In this document: one piece after another, positions 1 to 13,938 of the stretch | Position numbering within the stretch: position 1 is the first letter of the stretch | How the letters are laid out: every line of letters begins with the position of its first letter | NCBI GenBank assembly: GCA_023512345.1 | Contig: JAILZT010000002.1 | Location: 1-64,000 of the forward strand | From: Paenibacillus sp. | GTDB lineage: Bacteria; Bacillota; Bacilli; Paenibacillales; Paenibacillaceae | Direction of reading: 5' to 3' | DNA: 64,000 nucleotides | The notes under the pieces: generated by a model | Seen by the model: the letters and a program-made list of their open reading frames with translations, nothing else | Database searches by the model: none | What the model was told of the DNA's origin: nothing | Translations under genes and position numbers: made by a program

Positions 1-45
1 TGCCGCCAGCGTTCGTCCTGAGCCAGGATCAAACTCTCCAATTTT
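1..45 (-). rRNA. 16S ribosomal RNA, 5' end only (partial)
   Basis: The reverse complement of the first bases reads GGAGAGTTTGATCCTGGCTC followed by AGGACGAACGCTGGCGGCA, the universal start of bacterial 16S rRNA (the 27F primer region). The gene runs leftwards off the window, so only about 45 bases are present. The exact mature 5' end is uncertain by a few bases. A strong promoter lies about 140 bases upstream. Confidence 0.97.
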
Positions 46-183
46 GTATTGAAAAGAGCGATTGCTCATTTTGAAACTGACGATTCATTAAATGAATCTA
101 TTAAAAATTAACGCGTTCCATTTGTTCAGTTTTCAAAGAACTTGTTCCTGCATCAGAATTAATATCTCATGCACAGGAATCAT

Positions 184-213
184 ATTATATCATATTTCAT
201 TATTTCTTGTCAA
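184..213 (-). promoter_or_regulatory. sigma-A promoter of the rRNA operon
   Basis: On the minus strand there is a perfect -35 TTGACA (208-213), an 18-base spacer and a perfect -10 TATAAT (184-189). It points toward the 16S gene, leaving a leader of roughly 130 bases as is usual for rrn operons. The match is seen directly; its role is inferred from position. Confidence 0.8.
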
Positions 214-446
214 CTTATTTCTTCATCGTGTTTGTTTGTCTTCAACGACGCCTCATAAGCACAAGAAATAATATACCATGGCTATTCAATGTTTGCAACC
301 CTTTTTTTAAAACTAATTAATACCGTCTCAGTGCCCAGCAATAACAATAGATTTATATTTCAATATCGAATCAATTACGGCTAAAATAGAGTAATTGAAA
401 ACTCAATCATTCATAGACTCATTATATAGTACGTAAAGGAGCTAAG

Positions 447-1703
447 ATGAAAAACAATCCAGTATCAGATGCATCCCCTAAGGTAATTGAAGCTGCGCAG
501 TCACATAATACGCAACAAGCAACAATATACCGCATTTTGCTAGCCATCAGCTTTGTCCATTTATTCAATGATTCTATTCAGGCCGTCATCCCGGCTATCT
601 TCCCGATCCTCAAAGAAAATATGAGGCTTTCCTTCGCCCAAATAGGCTGGATATCCTTTGCTCTAAATATGACCTCCTCTGTTATTCAGCCCGTGATCGG
701 GTATGCAGCTGATCGTAAACCGCGGCCTTTTCTACTTCCACTAGGTATGTGCTCAACATTTGCTGGAGTTATGCTCCTCGCCTATGCCAACAATTACGTA
801 CTTGTCCTCATCTCCGTTATGCTTGTTGGTTTTGGTTCAGCCACCTTTCACCCAGAAGGTATGCGTGTTGCCCATATGGCAGCAGGACTCCGCAAAGGTC
901 TGTCCCAGTCTATTTTTCAGGTAGGCGGCAATGCTGGGCAATCGCTCGGTCCTATGTTAACCCGATGGATCTTTATCCCTTTTGGACAAATTGGAGCACT
1001 TAGTTTCACTATAGTAGCAGCCGCAGGAATCGCTGTTCAAACCTATGTTGCTCGCTGGTATGCAGATATGCTTAAGAATGGGTACACGTTCCGCAAAAAA
1101 TCTGCCGTTCGTAAAATTGACCCCGCGCGGAGTAAAAGTATTTTACAGGCAACTATTATTCTAGTATTTCTGGTCTTCGTTCGTTCTTGGTACGGGGCAT
1201 CTATCGGCAGTTACTATTCTTTCTACTTGATGGATAAATACCATATGTCCCTTGACGATGCACAGATATATATTTTTATGTATTTAGCAGCAGGAGCGGT
1301 GGGCACCTTCTTTGGCGGTCCACTCGCAGATCGATTTGGACGACGTAACTTGATCTTGTTATCAATGGTAGGTACTGTTCCGTTTGCACTGGCTTTACCC
1401 TTTGTCAGCCAATTTTGGGCCGGAGCTTTGCTTCTTCTAGGGGGCTTCATACTGCTGTCCAGCTTCTCGGTTACGGTTATTTATGCGCAGATGCTATATC
1501 CAGGTAATATCGGGACTGTCTCCGGGCTTATTACCGGACTCGCTTTTGGACTAGGGGGAATTGGTTCTCTTGTGATCGGTAATCTTATTGACCACGTAGG
1601 AATCTCCCAAGTATTTGTTGCTTGCGGCTTCCTTCCCCTGCTAGGATTGTTGGCTTTACTGCTGCCGGGGGATGACAAGCTAGAGGAATGGGCTGCTGAT
1701 TAA
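447..1703 (+). CDS. MFS transporter, fosmidomycin-resistance (Fsr)-like
   Basis: A 418-residue, very hydrophobic protein with about 12 predicted membrane segments, the usual length for the Fsr family of major facilitator drug exporters. The N-terminal region (FVHLFNDSIQAVIPAIFP) and the motif GYAADRKPRP in the first half, mirrored by GGPLADRFGRRN in the second half, fit MFS motif A in both repeats. It would be a proton-driven exporter in the cytoplasmic membrane; the substrate cannot be read from sequence. The start is supported by AAAGGAGCTAAG just before ATG. It is convergent with the radical SAM unit and shares a terminator with it, so a link to peptide export is not shown. Confidence 0.85.
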   Translation: MKNNPVSDASPKVIEAAQSHNTQQATIYRILLAISFVHLFNDSIQAVIPAIFPILKENMRLSFAQIGWISFALNMTSSVIQPVIGYAADRKPRPFLLPLGMCSTFAGVMLLAYANNYVLVLISVMLVGFGSATFHPEGMRVAHMAAGLRKGLSQSIFQVGGNAGQSLGPMLTRWIFIPFGQIGALSFTIVAAAGIAVQTYVARWYADMLKNGYTFRKKSAVRKIDPARSKSILQATIILVFLVFVRSWYGASIGSYYSFYLMDKYHMSLDDAQIYIFMYLAAGAVGTFFGGPLADRFGRRNLILLSMVGTVPFALALPFVSQFWAGALLLLGGFILLSSFSVTVIYAQMLYPGNIGTVSGLITGLAFGLGGIGSLVIGNLIDHVGISQVFVACGFLPLLGLLALLLPGDDKLEEWAAD

Positions 1704-1712
1704 TAACAATAA

Positions 1713-1754
1713 AAAAGACTCATCACTCTCAAGCAAGAGAAGGATGAGTCTTTC
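1713..1754. terminator. bidirectional Rho-independent terminator
   Basis: The stem AAAGACTCATC pairs with GATGAGTCTTT around a loop of about 18 bases. An A run precedes it and T-rich sequence follows, so it can end both the MFS transcript (plus) and the radical SAM/peptide transcript (minus). Confidence 0.8.
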
Positions 1755-1767
1755 TTATTAGAAATCT

Positions 1768-1851
1768 TTAGCTAAGACTACCTGGTACCGATTTGGAGAC
1801 ACGGCCCGTTGTAATCGCAGTCGGTTGTACCGCTGGACGAATAACTTTCAT
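1768..1851 (-). CDS. 27-residue peptide, candidate RiPP precursor of the adjacent radical SAM enzyme
   Basis: A short gene 60 bases downstream of the radical SAM gene on the same strand, preceded by a perfect AAGGAGGTGA seven bases or so before ATG, which is a stronger site than most genes in this window have. It encodes 27 residues starting MKVIRPAVQP, continuing TAITTGRVSK and ending SVPGSLS, then TAA. It is followed within about 15 bases by a terminator, so it is the last gene of the unit. The peptide is basic in its first 20 residues and Ser/Gly/Pro-rich at its end. It has no Cys, His or aromatic residue. Radical SAM/SPASM enzymes are commonly encoded next to short precursor peptides, so a ribosomally made, post-translationally modified product is inferred. 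I do not recognise the peptide family. It could also be an unmodified small protein. Confidence 0.7.
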   Translation of the reverse strand: MKVIRPAVQPTAITTGRVSKSVPGSLS

Positions 1852-1911
1852 AACATTCACCTCCTTAAAAAGCTCAAGCGTAATCTTCTTTAGGAGCTTA
1901 ATTTGTAGTTT

Positions 1912-3267
1912 TTATAAAGTTGATGCTTGCTCCTCAGCCTTCGCCTGAAGCCAAATCGTCCGCAGTGTTTGCTTAATCTGACGTTTCTCATAAGAACATG
2001 GACGGTTTCCCGTACGCATCCGGTACAGCGGGCAATGGTTTCCTTGACAGGAAGGTCGGAAGAAGCAGGATTGACAGTTGCTGTCAGTCTCCTCACCGGA
2101 GGTAGTCCATAACGCCATTTTGTCCAGATCAAGATCCAGGGTCCCATCTTCATGAATAGCTCCAAGCTGATTGTTCTCCTGATCAATAGCCACGGAGCAT
2201 TTGTACAGCTGACCGTCAGAGCCCACTATAAGAGAATTCGGTTTAGCCGCATAACACACCGCTCCGGTTGGAAGCAGAATATCAGAAATAAAAGAGCTTA
2301 CAGTGAGCCCCTGGGCAATGGCTTGTTCGTTGAACTCCCAGATTTTCTTGTCTTTTGTAATATCATCACATACCGGAAGATTCAAGTCATTCTCGCCCCC
2401 CATACAGCCTACAGGACGGAAATAAACTTTAAAGCGTGGGTCATCTCCGAATAGCTCTTTAAGAACGGGAATAAACTCGGTAACGGCATCTAGGTTACTA
2501 TTATCGAAATTAACACGCAAATTGATTTCAAATGGACGGTCTACCGCTTTTAATGACATCAAATTGTTGACAATTCGTGCAAATGTCCCGCCCCCGGCAG
2601 TCAATCCGCGCCGTTTGTCGTGGACCTCAGCATTACCGTCGAGTGTGACCATGAAGCGCTCCACCCGCCAATCCAAAAGCTTATCAAACATTTCACGATC
2701 CAGAAAATATCCGTTAGTGGATATTTCGGCACCGTAAACTACTCCATTGCTATCGCAGGATTCTATAAATGAACGGGAAAGCCGCTCAATGATTTGCGGA
2801 GCCAAAAGGGGTTCACCCCCGTGCCAGCTAATGGTCAACCGATTCAATGTCGATACCTGTTGAGCTATATATTTTTCAAGTCCCGAAGCCACATCATTCT
2901 TCATCGTTCCTCTTGGGAAATACTCATAGCAATAGTTGCAGCGGAAATTACAAGCCTCTGTCGCGAGCAGCACCAAGTGCATACTGTCCTGACGATGCAT
3001 CGACTGATGTAAAAATTGCGCCCGGCGCATTTCATCCGTATCTTGCTTAACCAAAAAACCATGCTGGAGAAGATGCTCGTGTAAAGTGAGGTCGCCGTCA
3101 GGAACAGGGTCGTCCGGTCCGGAAAGCAAAGCATTAACCCTGCTGCTCTCCTCTGGCGAAAACGCCGCGATGGCACCCGTATAGCTGTTGAACAGCATGA
3201 GTCCCCCGTCATCTACTGTTGTCCGCGCGTTAAAACGCGAAGGCTTCCATTGCACTTCCTGTTTCAT
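1912..3267 (-). CDS. radical SAM/SPASM peptide-modifying enzyme
   Basis: The protein carries the radical SAM motif CNFRCNYC (CX3CX2C, ligand of the SAM-binding 4Fe-4S cluster) about 105 residues from the chosen start, and a C-terminal SPASM-type Cys set (GAVC, YKC, CQSC, PSC, NHC, PCSY) expected to bind further Fe-S clusters. The first 100 residues have the short beta-rich segment typical of peptide maturases (FNARTTVDDGGLMLFNSYTG region). The frame is open from 3339, but no ribosome binding site precedes that ATG; ATG at 3267 follows AAGGATGGGGAC and gives 451 residues, so I chose it. Family knowledge: such enzymes make C-C, C-S or epimer modifications in RiPP precursors or act as sulfatase maturases. 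No sulfatase is nearby, and a 27-aa peptide gene follows directly, so peptide maturation is the favoured role. The reaction is unknown. Confidence 0.88.
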   Translation of the reverse strand: MKQEVQWKPSRFNARTTVDDGGLMLFNSYTGAIAAFSPEESSRVNALLSGPDDPVPDGDLTLHEHLLQHGFLVKQDTDEMRRAQFLHQSMHRQDSMHLVLLATEACNFRCNYCYEYFPRGTMKNDVASGLEKYIAQQVSTLNRLTISWHGGEPLLAPQIIERLSRSFIESCDSNGVVYGAEISTNGYFLDREMFDKLLDWRVERFMVTLDGNAEVHDKRRGLTAGGGTFARIVNNLMSLKAVDRPFEINLRVNFDNSNLDAVTEFIPVLKELFGDDPRFKVYFRPVGCMGGENDLNLPVCDDITKDKKIWEFNEQAIAQGLTVSSFISDILLPTGAVCYAAKPNSLIVGSDGQLYKCSVAIDQENNQLGAIHEDGTLDLDLDKMALWTTSGEETDSNCQSCFFRPSCQGNHCPLYRMRTGNRPCSYEKRQIKQTLRTIWLQAKAEEQASTL

Positions 3268-3455
3268 CAATTGTCCCCATCCTTGCTTTTTCAGATTAAA
3301 TGCTTCTATACAACTTTCTAATGATGACGTTCTATTCATGTAATTTCAATGACAGTAATCACGTCGGGAGCAAGATTATTCTTTCGGTTGTTTTTGCGGT
3401 ACAATTAGTTAAAAGTTGAACAATATTATCAATCTGAATAAGGGAGGACATCCCG

Positions 3456-4676
3456 GTGAAAAAAGGGTTAGCCCGAATCCGCAGAGGTTATGGAAAGAAA
3501 TTGGTCTCCATTCATGCTTGGAATGCATGGCTCGTGTTATTTTTGGCTCTAAGCGGACTTATGCTGCTTGGGGGATATTGGCGTGAAGCTTTGGGAGAAG
3601 GTCGAGTCTGGCTGAAATGGGGCCATATTCTATTCGGACTAGTTCTATTGATTCCTGTAATCTATTACCTCTTCCTTGCAGCCAAGCATTGGAAAAGACT
3701 AGAGGGTCGTCCCTCGCAAAAAGCAAATGTAATAGGTGTGCTTACTCTGTTGATAGGTTGGATTGTCTCCGGGATTGTACTCTGGCAATTCAAGTTGGCG
3801 GGACCCCGCGCGGCTAATACAGCACTCTTCATTCACGACCTACTGACCTGGGTTGGGCTTCCGATTATCATTTACCACTCCATCACAAGAACAAAATGGC
3901 TTAAAGAACCGCAAAAAAGAACGATTGTTCCAGAAATAGATAGAACACAACCCCTTTATTCACGCCGTGGTTTCATTAAAGTTGCCGTAGGTGCGGGGAT
4001 GGCACTAACATTAGGTCCTACCTTTGCAGGTTGGCTGGGGAAAGCTTTTAAACCCCCAAGCATGGAGGATTATGCGGCGGACAATGCAAATGCGCTGCTG
4101 CCCAACCCCATTCCCTTGCCTGAGTCCGTACCTCCAATCGGCGGGGGTGCTGAGGGACATTTTCGCGTATATACAGTAACAGACATCCCTTCCTTTAATA
4201 ATGCTAACTGGTCCTTTACGATTGACGGTCTGGTTGATAAGAAGTTTAGCTGGAATTGGGAAGAATTCGTGCAGTTGCAGCGCGAGGTGCAGGTCAGTGA
4301 TTTTCACTGTGTCACTGGGTGGTCTGTCTACAAAAATACATGGGAAGGCATCCCTTTAACCAAACTTCTGGATATGGCCGGTGTTCAGAGTAATGCCGCA
4401 ACCGTTAAGCTATATTCCGGAGATAATGTCTACACAGACTCCCTAACCATGGAGCAAGCGCGTATGGAGGATATAATCGTAGCGGTGATGCATGACGGTA
4501 TGCCGATTTCGAATCAGCTCGGGGGGCCTGTTCGTCTGGTTGTCCCACAAATGTATGCTTACAAGTCCGTGAAGTGGTTGAACCGGATTGAGTTGATTGA
4601 GGGCGAACATATCGGATACTGGGAACAGCGGGGATATGATATTGACGCTTGGCTTCCGGGTTCGAAGAAAGTATAA
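3456..4676 (+). CDS. fused cytochrome b561-like / Tat / molybdopterin oxidoreductase
   Basis: A 406-residue protein with GTG start behind AGGGAGGA. Residues 1-150 hold about four membrane helices with His at 20, 57, 127 and 141 as possible haem b ligands, like the DUF4405/cytochrome b561 or MsrQ (YedZ) type. A twin-arginine stretch (SRRGFIKVAVGAGMALTLG, RR at 170-171) follows, and then a sulfite-oxidase/MsrP-fold domain. Cys285 in DFHCVTGWS fits the conserved molybdenum-ligand Cys of that fold. The product would be a membrane-anchored enzyme with its Mo domain outside the cell and its own quinol-linked haem partner. Possible roles are repair of methionine sulfoxide or another S/N-oxide reaction; the substrate is not shown. 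It is transcribed divergently from the radical SAM gene. Confidence 0.82.
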   Translation: MKKGLARIRRGYGKKLVSIHAWNAWLVLFLALSGLMLLGGYWREALGEGRVWLKWGHILFGLVLLIPVIYYLFLAAKHWKRLEGRPSQKANVIGVLTLLIGWIVSGIVLWQFKLAGPRAANTALFIHDLLTWVGLPIIIYHSITRTKWLKEPQKRTIVPEIDRTQPLYSRRGFIKVAVGAGMALTLGPTFAGWLGKAFKPPSMEDYAADNANALLPNPIPLPESVPPIGGGAEGHFRVYTVTDIPSFNNANWSFTIDGLVDKKFSWNWEEFVQLQREVQVSDFHCVTGWSVYKNTWEGIPLTKLLDMAGVQSNAATVKLYSGDNVYTDSLTMEQARMEDIIVAVMHDGMPISNQLGGPVRLVVPQMYAYKSVKWLNRIELIEGEHIGYWEQRGYDIDAWLPGSKKV

Positions 4677-4691
4677 AAGGCTGACATACAC

Positions 4692-4730
4692 AAAAAGCTC
4701 CCGTCTGCGAAAAGGCAGCGGGAGCTTTTT
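4692..4730. terminator. bidirectional terminator
   Basis: The arms AAAAAGCTCCCG and CGGGAGCTTTTT form a 12-base-pair perfect stem. It sits between the convergent molybdopterin oxidoreductase and lipoprotein genes and has T runs on both strands. Confidence 0.9.
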
Positions 4731-4745
4731 AATAGATTACTTTTA

Positions 4746-5621
4746 CTATTGGATTTCCTCGAAGGATGCATCATAGAGACGAAACATGGTTTTATAGCCG
4801 GAATCATCTATTTTAATGCCTACGTCCAAGCGTCCGGTAATTTGCAAAGGAGCCGATTTGTATCTCAGTTTAACGTCATCGGGGACAAATACGATCATTA
4901 TTTTGTTCCAATACGTCTCGTCACCATTGTCGAAGGGACATTCCGCACCCGGTTCAGGAATAAGCAAGAACCAGTTTTTCTCAAAGGAGAGCACCTCACC
5001 CATGAAGCCCTTAATGGTAACCTGGCTGCCATGGAGATCCCAAAATTGTTCTGAGGGACGGGTCTGATCCTCGCCATCGAAGAAATCCGACCACCCAATC
5101 CCCGTGACTCCAACTAAATCTGGCTTCGCGGTATTTAAAGTGTTTAATGCCGGACTGGGCTTCGATGTTGGCTTTGCAGATGGCGAAGCGGTCGGTTGTT
5201 TAGGTGTCACTGCAGCTGTCATTGTCGCTGTAGCTGTTTTGGTTGCCGTTGCAGTAGCGGGCACTGTCGCAGTCGCTGCTGGAGTAGATTCTGAAGTAAT
5301 TGCTGTTGTAGCTTCTGTTGTAGCTTCTGTTGTGGCTTCTGTTAGGATCGACGGCTCAGTTGAGGGCGACTCAGGAGGCTTCGTCGGCTTACCTGCCGAC
5401 CCCGAAACAGTTGAGTAGTCAGTCTCCTCTGGTGGTGCTGAAGTCGCCGCTGGAACTAGAGAAGATTGAGCAGAAATGACGGGGGTATCAACTGCCGCAT
5501 CGCCAAAGGAATCCCCTCCGCTTACAGTCTGTTTATTTTGTCCGCAGCCCTGAAGAAGAAGTGACATTAAGATTATCGCTCCCGCTAAGATCAGACTTGG
5601 CCTAAATCTCCTTAAGTTCAA
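4746..5621 (-). CDS. lipoprotein with Thr/Ala-rich stalk and a DUF3299-like C-terminal domain
   Basis: A 291-residue protein starting at TTG, preceded by GGGAGG with good spacing. The signal sequence ends in the lipobox LLQGC, so it should be lipid-anchored outside the membrane. Residues about 35-165 are low-complexity Thr/Ala/Ser/Pro, including a TEAT repeat, and act as a spacer. The last 115 residues form a compact domain (HGSQVTIKGFMGEVL, WFLLIPEPGAECPF, PLQITGRLDVG) that resembles DUF3299, an OB-fold-like family seen beside LolCDE/MacB-type transporters; this is a recollection, not a search. It ends the phosphatase/ABC operon, 15 bases after the permease stop. Likely a partner of that transporter. 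Function unknown. Confidence 0.75.
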   Translation of the reverse strand: MNLRRFRPSLILAGAIILMSLLLQGCGQNKQTVSGGDSFGDAAVDTPVISAQSSLVPAATSAPPEETDYSTVSGSAGKPTKPPESPSTEPSILTEATTEATTEATTAITSESTPAATATVPATATATKTATATMTAAVTPKQPTASPSAKPTSKPSPALNTLNTAKPDLVGVTGIGWSDFFDGEDQTRPSEQFWDLHGSQVTIKGFMGEVLSFEKNWFLLIPEPGAECPFDNGDETYWNKIMIVFVPDDVKLRYKSAPLQITGRLDVGIKIDDSGYKTMFRLYDASFEEIQ

Positions 5622-5635
5622 AAGAGCATACCTCC

Positions 5636-6856
5636 CTATGATTTAAAAAGAGCTAACGGGCTAAGCCGATACATTCTGAATGCAGGTCCCACTGAAGATA
5701 ACAGTCCAATGAATAAGGTTCCCGCTCCTATCATCCAATGGCTATTCGTCCAATGAAATGGATCGATTTGAATCCCCGCTTGATCGAATAACGCATCCTT
5801 CAATATATAGGCTCCCAGATGTCCTATCAACAGACCCGCTACAAGTCCGGTTGCCGTAATGAGCAGACCCTCGCTCGTCAAAGTCATCCATATGTACCCT
5901 TTAGACTTACCTAAAAGGCGTAATAAACCCGCATCCTTAGTTCGCTCGCCTACTGCAGCAATTAGGGACAGCAAAATAGCTATCGCAGCCAACACTATAC
6001 ACAAAGACGTTAGTACATTGATAAGACGAGAACCCTGATCGACAGCATTAACTACATCGGACACAGCCTTGCTCGTATATGCAGCTTGAACTCCGTTAGT
6101 TCCATCTAATGTTTCCTTTAATCCATGAGCCCCCAGCAGACTGGCAGGCTTCACTAATATGGCCGTAATTTCTTTATGGTTATCTTCCGAACCATGTACT
6201 GCCCAAGCATAGTCAACGGTTGTAAAAATAGCTCGGTCATCAGGTGTATTCAAATCCGGCAGAACGCCAACGATTGTATAATCGAAGCTTGCATGGCCAT
6301 CCTCTTCCTCATGACCCTCATTCCCAGCAGTGTGTTCATCTTCATGTTCCTCCTGCTGTACAAGACCATGCGCTCCAGAGAAGGTATCCCCAACTTGAAG
6401 ATTTAACGTACTGGCTACATAAGAACCGACAATAGCTTCACCCGTGCTGCGAAAAATAGTGCCCCGCTCAAGATTACGATCTCCGTAACGAGTTAAGAAG
6501 TACTCTGGTTCAATCCCAACCACTGGAAATCCATTGTAATTATCGCCTGTTGTCATAGCATAGGCCTTATCCACCCCGGTATCCATCTTGGCTTGCTCCA
6601 AAACTGTTAGCGGAATGTTACCCGTGGGAGCTCCGATATGATAGAACGCATTCAGTACCAGCTGTGTTTCACTGCCTTCGGCACCAATGACGAGATCGAA
6701 CGGACCGTAACCCTTTTTCGCTCCCTGCTCCACGCTGTCTTGAGCCAATGATACCAATAGGATAAAAGCAACCGTAACCGCGACTGCGCTAATGGTCAGC
6801 AGAGATAAAAAACGCCGGTGCACAACATTACGGAACGTAAATTTCAAAAGACTCAT
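5636..6856 (-). CDS. ABC transporter permease, FtsX/MacB-like, with His-rich extracellular loop
   Basis: A 406-residue protein with one N-terminal membrane helix (about 15-38), a large external domain, and three C-terminal helices, which is the FtsX/LolE/MacB layout. It overlaps the ATPase gene by ATGA, so the two are translationally coupled. Residues 160-190 are an acidic/His insert, with His at 163, 171, 175, 182 and 188 among many Glu and Asp, a typical divalent-metal-binding pattern. With the upstream alkaline phosphatase (a Zn/Mg enzyme) and the DUF3299-like lipoprotein downstream, a metal-linked role is inferred. This type of transporter often moves lipids, peptides or lipoproteins rather than ions, so the cargo is open. 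Confidence 0.85.
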   Translation of the reverse strand: MSLLKFTFRNVVHRRFLSLLTISAVAVTVAFILLVSLAQDSVEQGAKKGYGPFDLVIGAEGSETQLVLNAFYHIGAPTGNIPLTVLEQAKMDTGVDKAYAMTTGDNYNGFPVVGIEPEYFLTRYGDRNLERGTIFRSTGEAIVGSYVASTLNLQVGDTFSGAHGLVQQEEHEDEHTAGNEGHEEEDGHASFDYTIVGVLPDLNTPDDRAIFTTVDYAWAVHGSEDNHKEITAILVKPASLLGAHGLKETLDGTNGVQAAYTSKAVSDVVNAVDQGSRLINVLTSLCIVLAAIAILLSLIAAVGERTKDAGLLRLLGKSKGYIWMTLTSEGLLITATGLVAGLLIGHLGAYILKDALFDQAGIQIDPFHWTNSHWMIGAGTLFIGLLSSVGPAFRMYRLSPLALFKS

Positions 6857-7569
6857 GCCATGCTCACCTCCTGCTGATCTCTAGCTCCCAGCGGCCTGAG
6901 GTTGGACCCCCGGTTATGGTTCACATCGTAAATATCGAGGCAGTTGGGAAAACGCCGCGCCATATTCAAGTCATGGGTTACGACAATTAAGGTCTGTTTT
7001 TCATTCGCACTTAAATTCAATAAAAGCTCTGAAATTTCATCAGCCGTTTCCCAGTCCAAACTCCCGGTGGGCTCGTCTGCCAATACAAGGGGCGGTTCAT
7101 TAACAAGAGCGCGTATAATAGCTACGCGCTGCTGCTGTCCACGGGACAATTGGGAGGGCAGATGACGGTTGCGATCCTGCAGACCCACCTTTTCCAGCCA
7201 ATCCCCGATCAGATTATTCTTTTGTTTTGCTGACAAACGTACATTCAGGGCAATCTCTACATTTTGTTCCACAGTAAGCGAAGGGATGAGATGAAAATCC
7301 TGAAGTACATAACCTATTCGTCCCGCCCGGAGTTTATCCAGTTCCCCTTCCTTAAGCACATGCAGAGGAATTCCATCCATAACAATCTCCCCGCTGTCCG
7401 GCCGCAGAATTCCACTGATTAAATGGAGAAGGGTACTTTTACCGGACCCACTGGGTCCGGTAATCGCTACCTTTTCACCTTTTGCGACGTTCCATTCAGG
7501 AATATTCAAGATCGGGACTGTTCGCCCATCCACTCTAAATTGTTTCTCCAGACCGCGAATTTGCAGCAA
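6853..7569 (-). CDS. ABC transporter ATP-binding protein, LolD/MacB type
   Basis: The protein has a Walker A motif (GPSGSGKST), Q-loop, signature LSRGQQQR, Walker B ([13 protein letters not shown]) and the switch His (VVTHD), the standard set for a LolD-type ATPase. The frame is open to 7617, inside the end of the phosphatase gene. The sequence AGGAG followed by eight bases places the best start at TTG 7569 (238 residues); GTG at 7578 lies directly against the binding site and is less likely. It energises the FtsX-like permease that follows with a 4-base overlap. Its start lies 12 bases after the phosphatase stop, so the phosphatase and transporter are probably one transcript. Confidence 0.9.
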
Positions 7570-7580
7570 TCCACTCACTC

Positions 7581-9308
7581 CTATCGCAGTATAATCCGCT
7601 CGGACAGGGTATCCCAACTCAGTGTTTTCCCCGTTAATTGACTAAAAGCTTCAAGAGGCAAATACAATTTTCCATTATCAATATCTACGGTGTAAGAAGT
7701 AGCATTACCATTAAGTGTTGCGGTCTGAGCCGTTAAATTTACAATGACCGTATTCTTTCCTAAGACGAGATTCGCTGTTGCGGTGTCTCCCTTGTAGGTA
7801 CCGCCGAGTGCTTTTACCAGCGCCTCTGCAGGATACAGCACTTTATTCTCGCGATTAATTTTAAACTTAGGATACAGGTATTTCGATTGCAGCTCTGTAG
7901 ACTGTTTGTTAAGGTCAACTCCAATAATACTTGCGCCGGCAGTGGCGATTTGTGTGTTGTCCACTTGGCCCTTAACTTTATCGGCTATTGGACCATACGC
8001 CCATATCCCTACATCCACAGCGGAGTGACCATGACCGGACCAGCCCACCAGCAAACGTTTTGACACTACTGCGTTGTAGGCTCCCTCACGCTTATAAGAG
8101 GAACCATCTCCCGCCATAATCTGCTGAACCTCTTCATCAGACAGATCTGTGATCCAGGTATTAGTCGTTACGATTGCCCGTATTTCCTCAGCTGTTTTTG
8201 CTGCTTCAAGAGAAGCTGCTAGACTTTCGGAGGAGTGCTTTTGCTTATCCCAAAGATCAATATTAATTTCATAAATGTTATCTCTGGACAGAGAGAGTCC
8301 ACCAGTTTCATGATCAGCTGTAACTACGACTGATGTATTACCATCTTTTTTTGCAAAATCCATAGCGGCCTTAAAAGCTGCGTCGAAGTCAAGCACCTCT
8401 TGAACAGTTGTTGGCAAATCGTTGGCATGTCCGGCATGGTCTATCCGACCACCCTCAACCATCATTACGAATCCTTCTTTATCCTTAGACAGGATGTTTA
8501 ACGCTTTGGAGGTCATCGCCGCCAGATTGGGGATTTCCGCAGTACGGTCAGGGACATAGGCAACATGTGAGCTGCCGAACAAGCCCAGTACTTTGGTGGT
8601 ATTGGCAGGAAGAGCGTTCAGACTGGAGGTGTTCTCAACCACGGTGTAACCCTTGGCTTGAAAGTCAGGCAAGAGGTTCTTATCCGTGCGTTTGCCCTTC
8701 TCGTCTTTGGTTACGAAGAACTGTTTGCCTCCCCCTAGCAGAACGTCTACACCGCTCTCCAAATATTGTGAGGCGATAGCATTTTCATTATCACGACTGC
8801 GGACATGAGAGGCATATACAGCAGGCGTTGCGTGAGTAATCCGGGCCGTTGTAACAAGTCCAGTCGCCTTGCCGGTAATCTCAGCCGCTTCAATTATAGA
8901 AGCAAAGGGTCTCGCTATATCTTCATTAGACACGCTGATACCCGCGTTATATGTTTTATGACCTGTTGCAAATGCTGTTCCCGCTGAGGCTGAATCCGTA
9001 ACGATCCCTGATACAATTTTGCCTCCATCCTCACCACGATCTGCATATGTAGTGGCTTGGCCAACATAGTACGGGTCAATGTTAAGGTGGCTGATTCCCT
9101 TGGTATATTGCTGATAATAACGTGCGGCGGAGACTTGAGCAGGTCCCATTCCATCTCCAATCAGGACGATAAGGTTTTTGGATTGGGCTTTAGCTGGAGT
9201 TGCTGGCTTTTTTGCATTCTGCTCAGCACCGACAAGGGTAGTACCTGATACAACAGCTACAGCCATTCCGCCAATTACCATGCTTTTCATAAATTTATTC
9301 AATTTCAT
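7581..9308 (-). CDS. phoA: secreted alkaline phosphatase with C-terminal stalk domain
   Basis: A 575-residue protein with an N-terminal signal peptide (about 1-28). It has the alkaline phosphatase core: metal-binding Asp in VLIGDGMG (about 52), nucleophile Ser in VTDSASAG (about 106), and metal-ligand motifs EGGRIDHAGH, VVTADHETGG and GWSGHGHS. The core ends near residue 465. The remaining 110 residues are a copper-amine-oxidase-N-like stalk domain, which is unusual for PhoA and common in Paenibacillus wall or secreted proteins. It releases phosphate from phosphomonoesters outside the cell and needs zinc and magnesium. A Pho-box-like array lies just upstream, fitting induction by phosphate starvation. 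It is the first gene of the operon with the ABC transporter. Confidence 0.93.
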   Translation of the reverse strand: MKLNKFMKSMVIGGMAVAVVSGTTLVGAEQNAKKPATPAKAQSKNLIVLIGDGMGPAQVSAARYYQQYTKGISHLNIDPYYVGQATTYADRGEDGGKIVSGIVTDSASAGTAFATGHKTYNAGISVSNEDIARPFASIIEAAEITGKATGLVTTARITHATPAVYASHVRSRDNENAIASQYLESGVDVLLGGGKQFFVTKDEKGKRTDKNLLPDFQAKGYTVVENTSSLNALPANTTKVLGLFGSSHVAYVPDRTAEIPNLAAMTSKALNILSKDKEGFVMMVEGGRIDHAGHANDLPTTVQEVLDFDAAFKAAMDFAKKDGNTSVVVTADHETGGLSLSRDNIYEINIDLWDKQKHSSESLAASLEAAKTAEEIRAIVTTNTWITDLSDEEVQQIMAGDGSSYKREGAYNAVVSKRLLVGWSGHGHSAVDVGIWAYGPIADKVKGQVDNTQIATAGASIIGVDLNKQSTELQSKYLYPKFKINRENKVLYPAEALVKALGGTYKGDTATANLVLGKNTVIVNLTAQTATLNGNATSYTVDIDNGKLYLPLEAFSQLTGKTLSWDTLSERIILR

Positions 9309-9350
9309 TCCCCTTCCTTATTATCGATCTAATCAAGCTTACCTCCGGAA

Positions 9351-9389
9351 GGTTAACGAATTGTCAAAACAAGCTACAGTTTGTATTAA
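9351..9389 (-). promoter_or_regulatory. putative PhoP-binding Pho box upstream of phoA
   Basis: On the minus strand, hexamers TTAATA, TGTAGC, TTGACA and TTAACC start exactly 11 bases apart. Three of the four resemble the Bacillus PhoP consensus TT(A/T/C)ACA with 5-base spacers, and the array lies 43-81 bases before the phosphatase ATG. Pattern seen directly; PhoP binding is inferred from family knowledge. Confidence 0.55.
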
Positions 9390-9416
9390 ATTATCATTCA
9401 TTCATATGTTCAGAAC

Positions 9417-9466
9417 AAAAAAAAGTCCCGATCCCTTTCGTACAAGACGAAATGAAACCGAGACTC
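9417..9466 (-). terminator. terminator of the ligA operon
   Basis: On the minus strand AGTCTCGG pairs with the reverse arm CGGGACT through an extended hairpin with inner stem TTTCGT/ACGAAA. It is followed by a run of eight T. It lies directly after the ligA stop. Confidence 0.8.
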
Positions 9467-9500
9467 TGTTGATGTTATACAGTTTACACAGCTTAATTAA

Positions 9501-13938
<4,438 letters not shown>

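Follow-up and report, generated by a model that had tools for sequence, protein, structure and literature searches.

A radical SAM/SPASM enzyme of Paenibacillus and its conserved, cysteine-free 27-residue partner peptide: a putative maturase-precursor pair

What could a peptide-modifying radical S-adenosylmethionine (SAM) enzyme do to a substrate without any of the residues at which most known enzymes of its kind form links? The question is raised by a two-gene unit in the window, the term used here for the whole 64,000-nucleotide stretch analysed (positions 1 to 64,000 of contig JAILZT010000002.1, assembly GCA_023512345.1, Paenibacillus sp.), in which the gene for a radical SAM/SPASM enzyme is followed by a gene for a 27-residue peptide devoid of Cys, His, Phe, Tyr and Trp. 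The pair may be a self-contained maturase and precursor, in which the KSVPGNL tail of the peptide would undergo a two-electron oxidation and form a sulfur-free bond, a reading to which we assign a probability of about 0.5; the modification may be one that has not been described.

The preliminary description of this locus had made the pairing depend on conservation of the peptide gene beside homologous enzymes. The loci examined comprise the best 80 of 397 stretches encoding a relative of the enzyme and 30 from Paenibacillales genomes, the two draws overlapping in species so that not all loci are independent; they are given L numbers where they have to be told apart. A motif search finds a related peptide adjoining 102 of the 109 homologous enzymes, the window's own copy excluded. 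The 102 peptides represent 63 distinct sequences and start with ATG (93), GTG (7), TTG (1) or GTA (1; L020, where the peptide was read from the Val before KIIRP and a GTG start assumed), and a Shine-Dalgarno-like pattern lies 5' of 101 of them. The seven loci lacking the peptide are L029 and, outside the peptide-bearing clade of enzymes, L082 and L108-L112; the L029 contig stops 281 bases past the enzyme match, and in its nearest relative, L030, the peptide follows after about 302 bases. Six further loci with the peptide (L133-L137, L144) came from a class-wide search, the L133 peptide being identical to that of L039. At L144/L155 the enzyme homologue is disrupted by internal stops and the downstream peptide frame is intact.

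Conservation was assessed over 65 distinct peptides, two of them added by hand, which give the consensus M[KR]x[IL]RPA..P......G[RK][ILV]xKSVPGNL[KS]. M1, K20, P23 and G24 are invariant in all 65; V22, L26 and G16 are kept in 61, R5 in 59, S21 in 57, A7 in 56, N25 in 53 and P6 in 51. The RPAVQPTAIT-like core that had been expected to be conserved is so at its N-terminal side, within MKxIRPA, and varies in its middle; it is the C-terminal K-S-V-P-G-N-L that, with MKxIRPA, is most conserved. The ratio of nonsynonymous to synonymous differences (pN/pS) is 0.18 over 450 peptide pairs of at least 70% identity, a sign of purifying selection and of translation. A chance open reading frame (ORF) is ruled out by the conservation, the pN/pS value and the co-occurrence described next; the peptide gene is real.

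Co-occurrence was examined in a draw of 296 Paenibacillales genomes with one profile for the enzyme and one for the peptide. The enzyme profile matches 33 genomes (E-value of 1e-60 or lower) and the peptide profile 26 (0.01 or lower), of which the match in G196 (E 0.005) lies inside a 1724-residue frame and is not credible. The peptide is thus present in 25 genomes, exactly those whose enzyme match has E below 1e-170, a line set post hoc from a gap in the scores, and in none of the other 271 (Fisher p 7e-37); in the remaining eight enzyme-bearing genomes the relatives are more remote, their best E lying between 1e-145 and 1e-62. The window's own genome has a single copy of the enzyme gene, its sole other match being weak (E 7.4e-4). 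Two enzyme paralogues occur in each of seven genomes of genus g31 (G090, G094, G108, G134, G144, G164 and G216), one of the Cys-free clade with its peptide and a distant one of about 480 bits; L108/L109, also of this genus, score like the distant paralogue. The hosts of the family are Paenibacillus, several genera of Bacillaceae, Kurthia, Alicyclobacillus and some Clostridia. In a phylum-wide draw of 299 genomes the peptide was found solely in the window's own genome, and outside the Bacilli it is at least rare, two members having been found in Clostridia (L066, L067).

Among the 63 distinct peptides Cys occurs in five, always in the variable middle, His in 13 at differing places, Trp in four (position 3) and Phe and Tyr in one each, none of them conserved. 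The absence of Cys, His and aromatic residues, first remarked on for the window peptide, therefore holds strictly for that peptide, and across the family such residues are sporadic and never conserved. There is neither a conserved Cys to act as thioether donor, as in the precursors of sactipeptides and ranthipeptides, nor, as for aromatic cyclophanes, a core with Trp, Tyr, Phe or His at a conserved place; composition thus rules out both thioether and aromatic crosslinks as the general outcome. The TQQ core of the threoglucins is found in none of the 63. The window peptide and five others of the family have no match among the NCBIfam models, and the best models for the enzyme, among the 25 of 79 families listed, are TIGR04463 (221.9 bits, cut-off 525) and the Clo7bot maturase model TIGR04334 (181.1 bits, cut-off 600), both far below cut-off; the name of the former, 'rSAM_vs_C_rich', implies a Cys-rich partner, unlike the window peptide. 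The initial assessment, that the pair stands apart from the thioether and aromatic classes and does not obviously fit a described class of ribosomally synthesised and post-translationally modified peptide (RiPP), agrees with these results. Searches of the literature by topic and by sequence string, with most subscription papers outside reach, yielded no description of the Cys-free family, which is apparently a coherent, widespread and undescribed family of radical SAM peptides; an unlabelled cluster in the supplement of Kostenko et al. (PMC9062424) may contain it.

The enzyme has a radical SAM core (PF04055, E 2.3e-14) and, beyond the radical SAM motif, eight invariant Cys. One of these, C300, lies in the linker before the SPASM region and is present in all 90 enzymes of the peptide-bearing clade. 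According to the accessible part of PMC6231123, the corresponding linker of SuiB gives the first ligand of auxiliary cluster I (Aux I) and the clusters are fully ligated, whereas Aux I of CteB has an open site. As aligned, C300 may close Aux I in the present enzyme, a difference from CteB (PDB 5WGG/5WHY); all invariant Cys may be cluster ligands, C300 less certainly than the others, and both auxiliary clusters are apparently fully ligated, so that the enzyme seems fit for a net two-electron oxidation. The clade-specific M206 and W310 are found in 90 of 90 clade members, H411 in 88 and N410 in 87 of the 89 covered, the last two residues both differing in L082, L108, L138 and L139-L142; M206 and N410-H411 also set the enzyme apart from CteB. 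Compared with the maturases of SCIFF/ranthipeptides and sactipeptides, to which CteB belongs, the substrate here would be one without a Cys donor. The N-terminal domain is predicted to consist of strands followed by helices, and the enzyme model aligns to CteB from residue 10; the N-terminal domain of CteB is described as a RiPP recognition element (RRE) in the same accessible text (PMC6231123), and a Pfam scan of the enzyme gave no RRE match.

In the mechanism that we propose, the RRE-like N-terminal domain would bind the conserved N-terminal leader MKxIRPA, and a 5'-deoxyadenosyl radical would take a hydrogen from the C-terminal segment K20-S-V-P23-G24-N-L, the auxiliary iron-sulfur clusters accepting the second electron with a net loss of two hydrogens. 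Because the peptide offers neither a thiol nor an aromatic ring, the oxidised carbon would be trapped by an O or N of a neighbouring side chain or of the backbone, or by another carbon. The result would be a small ring without sulfur, whose exact atoms are not claimed but which is most likely to lie between K20 and N25. TqqB forms an ether between Thr O and Gln C-alpha with neither Cys nor an aromatic ring, and the bicyclostreptins contain bonds from backbone N to C-alpha, as stated in the available part of PMC13361665; these precedents, together with the apparently fully ligated clusters, favour a ring of this kind in K20-N25. The likeness to TqqB and the threoglucins, as radical SAM crosslinks that need neither Cys nor an aromatic ring, and to the bicyclostreptins, as crosslinks through backbone N, is one of description and not of compared enzyme sequences, and those systems, again as far as PMC13361665 is available, differ in being streptococcal and tied to Rgg regulators.

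The pattern of invariant residues would also suit a backbone change at Pro23-Gly24, in which oxidation of the Gly C-alpha would lead to cleavage or C-terminal amidation, or desaturation would occur without a crosslink. Pro23 and Gly24 are, with Lys20, invariant in 65 of 65 peptides, and hydrogen abstraction from the C-alpha of glycine is relatively facile; however, N25 (53 of 65) and L26 (61 of 65) past the Gly are conserved as well, which cleavage would not obviously need, and we know of no precedent for amidation by a radical SAM enzyme. Such a change appears rather unlikely.

The relatives of the enzyme give further indications as to the origin of the sulfur-free substrate. In a FastTree phylogeny of 113 enzymes, the peptide-bearing rows form a clade of 90, of which 89 have the peptide and the 90th is L029; in a tree of 55 rows the 36 sampled clade rows are monophyletic with support of 100/100. 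Identity to the window enzyme is 45-93% in the clade and 26-43% in the outgroup rows. In 13 of the 19 outgroup rows the enzyme is accompanied by a short ORF that has two or more Cys close to its C-terminus; these are rows L138, L108, L139, L141, L142, L153, L156, L154, L146-L149 and L151 of the smaller tree, and in L138, L108, L148 and L154 the ORF lies upstream of the enzyme. The tails are of the types NNCNC, CNNCWC, NCHIC, NCNGC or CGCG, and MKWIVKAAQERKATGNNNNCNC, MKFVKKANQAVRKINAGNNCNC and MKLVKKAMKRREAVANTNCNC may be compared with MKWIRPAITTAQAVNTGKILKSVPGNLA of the Cys-free clade. We know of no published name for these Cys-tailed relatives, the enzymes of which (L138, L139, L141, L142, L108/L109, L153, L154 and L156) are 34-42% identical to that of the window. 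The nearest group, L139-L142, joins the clade with support of 83/76 and has NCNC tails wherever a partner was found. L139, L141 and L142, the three nearest with Cys tails, resemble the window unit in having a tiny downstream precursor with a ribosome-binding site and a common MKx[IV]..A start, their MKWIVKA, MKFVKKA and MKLVKKA recalling the MKWIRPA and MKVIRPA of the clade. To judge from these starts, the leader was apparently kept and the Cys core replaced in the Cys-free clade, the direction from Cys core to Cys-free being suggested by an outgroup that is mostly Cys-tailed; the Cys-tailed peptides would themselves become thioethers.

These relatives bear also on whether the short gene encodes a substrate at all. 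It could instead specify a partner or regulator of an enzyme that modifies something else, since the peptide gene comes after the enzyme gene and varies little for a RiPP precursor; but L139, L141 and L142 have downstream Cys-tailed small peptides with similar starts, in three copies in L142, and the fold of the enzyme is that of peptide maturases, which makes this alternative very unlikely. The L142 copies (L142:1150-1510, minus strand), like those of L158, are tandem, near-identical genes for 22-23 residues with an NNNNCNC tail and a strong ribosome-binding site each, apparently an unnamed family of Cys-tailed radical SAM peptides. Peptides of 37-42 residues ending in DNCNGC or GNCHIC lie 5' of the enzyme in L108, L109 and L138, and a gene that by eye resembles major facilitator superfamily (MFS) transporters lies directly 3' of the enzyme in L108.

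A possible mode of control of the maturase-precursor unit is indicated by the regions upstream of the enzyme genes. Between 20 and 200 bases 5' of the enzyme gene, 38 of the 80 loci have the CRP/Fnr-type box [TCA]GTGA-N6-TCA[CT], at positions -77 to -189 (dinucleotide shuffles: mean 0.28, maximum 2); perfect TGTGA-N6-TCACA copies are present in L053 and L064 and, farther off at -283, in L068. The window genome encodes a regulator resembling Fnr and having a cluster of Cys at its C-terminus (L170), which we take to be akin to B. subtilis Fnr, as we take the box to be that of Fnr. Fnr probably raises expression at low oxygen in many hosts. The link to nitrate respiration is weak: narG occurs in 15 of the 25 genomes with the peptide and in 90 of the 271 without it (Fisher p 0.015, with no correction for kinship), and the seven peptide-bearing genomes of the P. 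elgii/tyrfis type (genus g31) lack it. Scans for further boxes were run against mononucleotide shuffles. NrdR boxes at these loci were not above the shuffles; Rex boxes were slightly raised (16 loci with two or three mismatches against 9.4), and cre boxes were raised (15 loci with one mismatch against 5.6). Fur/PerR boxes were raised too: two loci had one mismatch, and ten had three, where the shuffles gave 2.6. The best two Fur/PerR loci are L066 and L067, both from Clostridia, and among the ten three-mismatch loci five are closely related.

The surroundings of the unit bear on the role of its product. Beyond local synteny, the families of neighbouring genes are not conserved: among clustered ORFs of at least 70 residues in the fetched flanks, no family besides the enzyme occurs in more than 16 of the 80 loci, and no extra conserved exporter, protease or immunity gene was found there. 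As no conserved exporter or protease gene adjoins and the sequence varies little, the product is more probably a signal or cofactor-like agent with a single conserved target than a diversifying antibiotic. The precursors of pyrroloquinoline quinone (PQQ) and mycofactocin are likewise short, conserved over their full length and modified by a SPASM enzyme; they differ in that their cores hold the residues of the future redox group (Glu-Tyr and Val-Tyr), of which the window peptide has none. In its fullest form, the proposal would be that an Fnr-induced enzyme makes an unseen sulfur-free bond, for example from Lys20 or Ser21 to the Gly24 C-alpha, in an intracellular peptide of little-changing sequence that serves as a conserved signal or cofactor and that arose by a Cys-core swap in a thioether-type peptide; we hold this combination to be speculative and, as a whole, doubtful. 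If true, the swap would make visible how chemistry changes within a radical SAM lineage that forms thioethers.

Several observations count against the proposals above. The NCNC-type relatives are placed as closest sister with support that is modest (83/76), the partners of L110 and L111 have a single terminal Cys, and no convincing partner was found on searching L082, L140, L143 and L152 (4 of the 19 outgroup rows). C300 is present also in L139 and L142, which have Cys-tailed partners; it is hence no marker of changed chemistry by itself, and the idea of a gain of C300 coupled to Cys loss was abandoned. As to Fnr, the box of the window is weak, the pattern is missing at 42 of the 80 loci and occurs before 30 of 432 other ORFs of the same loci, none was found before narG of the window's own genome, and Clostridia L066 and L067 carry instead a near-perfect Fur/PerR-like palindrome, CGATAATNATTATCA, at -89 and -87. 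Finally, V22 is replaced by Ala, Asn or Met in 3 of the 65 distinct peptides, and one universal site at Val is therefore unlikely.

The last point counts against a cyclopropylglycine synthase, which would link both gamma carbons of Val22 to each other, in the manner of TvgB with TVGG repeats, since Ala and Asn cannot close in this way. The S/T-V-P-G context is similar to that of TVGG (accessible part of PMC9062424), and TigE (8vpo) is fourth in the Foldseek list of the enzyme (E 2.6e-14); the peptide has, however, a single S-V-P-G and no repeats. In cyclopropylglycine synthases a GYY motif supplies a Tyr ligand to Aux I, and their cores are built of T-[VI]-G repeats such as TVGG or TIGSVS; the window enzyme has no GYY motif, and we consider such a reaction highly improbable. 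An epimerase, inverting the C-alpha of Val22, Leu26 or another residue with the mass unchanged, as does EpeE in epipeptides, would accord with the conserved Val and Leu, with the absence of a thiol from the peptide and with the presence of EpeE structures among the fold matches of the enzyme; the epipeptides of B. subtilis contain epimerised Val and Ile (PMC8326336, in the part available). The epimerases of epipeptides and proteusins need a free catalytic Cys; in the enzyme studied here every invariant Cys may be a cluster ligand, C300 being the least certain. Epimerisation nevertheless seems to us an unlikely outcome, and the sulfur-free ring in the KSVPGNL tail is preferred.

The pair is convenient for further study, as a 27-residue precursor eases reconstitution and the Cys-free and Cys-tailed pairs can be compared to see which residues (M206, N410-H411, C300) choose between a thioether and another product. 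Given the strong conservation and the lack of an exporter nearby, one may also ask whether radical SAM peptides can act inside the cell, perhaps under oxygen limitation.

The features of the unit are collected in Table 1. The first reading of the locus, an enzyme gene followed after 60 bases by a 27-residue ORF with a perfect ribosome-binding site and its own terminator, proved correct in its coordinates, and the terminator hairpin with its T run has a folding energy of -29 kcal/mol (z = -8.25 against 200 shuffles); a simple pattern scan did not list this hairpin.

Table 1. Features of the two-gene unit, in window coordinates.
Feature	Position	Strand	Basis or remark
Radical SAM/SPASM enzyme, putative peptide maturase, 451 residues	1912..3267	minus	ATG at 3267, stop at 1912
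Putative precursor peptide, 27 residues, MKVIRPAVQPTAITTGRVSKSVPGSLS	1768..1851	minus	ATG at 1851, stop at 1768
Ribosome-binding site of the peptide gene, AAGGAGGTGA	1857..1866	minus	direct reading of the sequence; perfect
Intrinsic terminator between the peptide gene and the convergent MFS gene	1707..1760	minus	RNA fold
Weak CRP/Fnr-like box, CGTGATTACTGTCATT	3348..3363	minus	upstream of the enzyme; imperfect copy
CxxxCxxC of the radical SAM cluster (C106, C110, C113)	2929..2952	minus	in all 90 clade rows and 23 outgroup rows
SPASM region, C338 to C424, with clade-specific N410-H411	1996..2256	minus	Cys in 89 of 89 covered clade rows
N-terminal domain, residues about 1-90, possibly RRE-like and leader-binding	2998..3267	minus	fold alignment, predicted secondary structure

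An in-frame ATG at 3339, giving an enzyme of 475 residues, is a less likely start, as the best-scoring homologues mostly have about 450 residues; a GTG at 1860, which would add three residues to the peptide, falls within the AAGGAGGTGA site. The divergent gene at 3456-4676 (plus strand) encodes a molybdopterin sulfite-oxidase-type domain (PF00174) with an N-terminal cytochrome-b-like part (PF01292 below its cut-off), and the intergenic region that it has in common with the enzyme gene holds the Fnr-like box. Rfam models at the gathering threshold gave no match in positions 1-12000 of the window, and positions 1-60 look like the 5' end of a minus-strand 16S rRNA gene.
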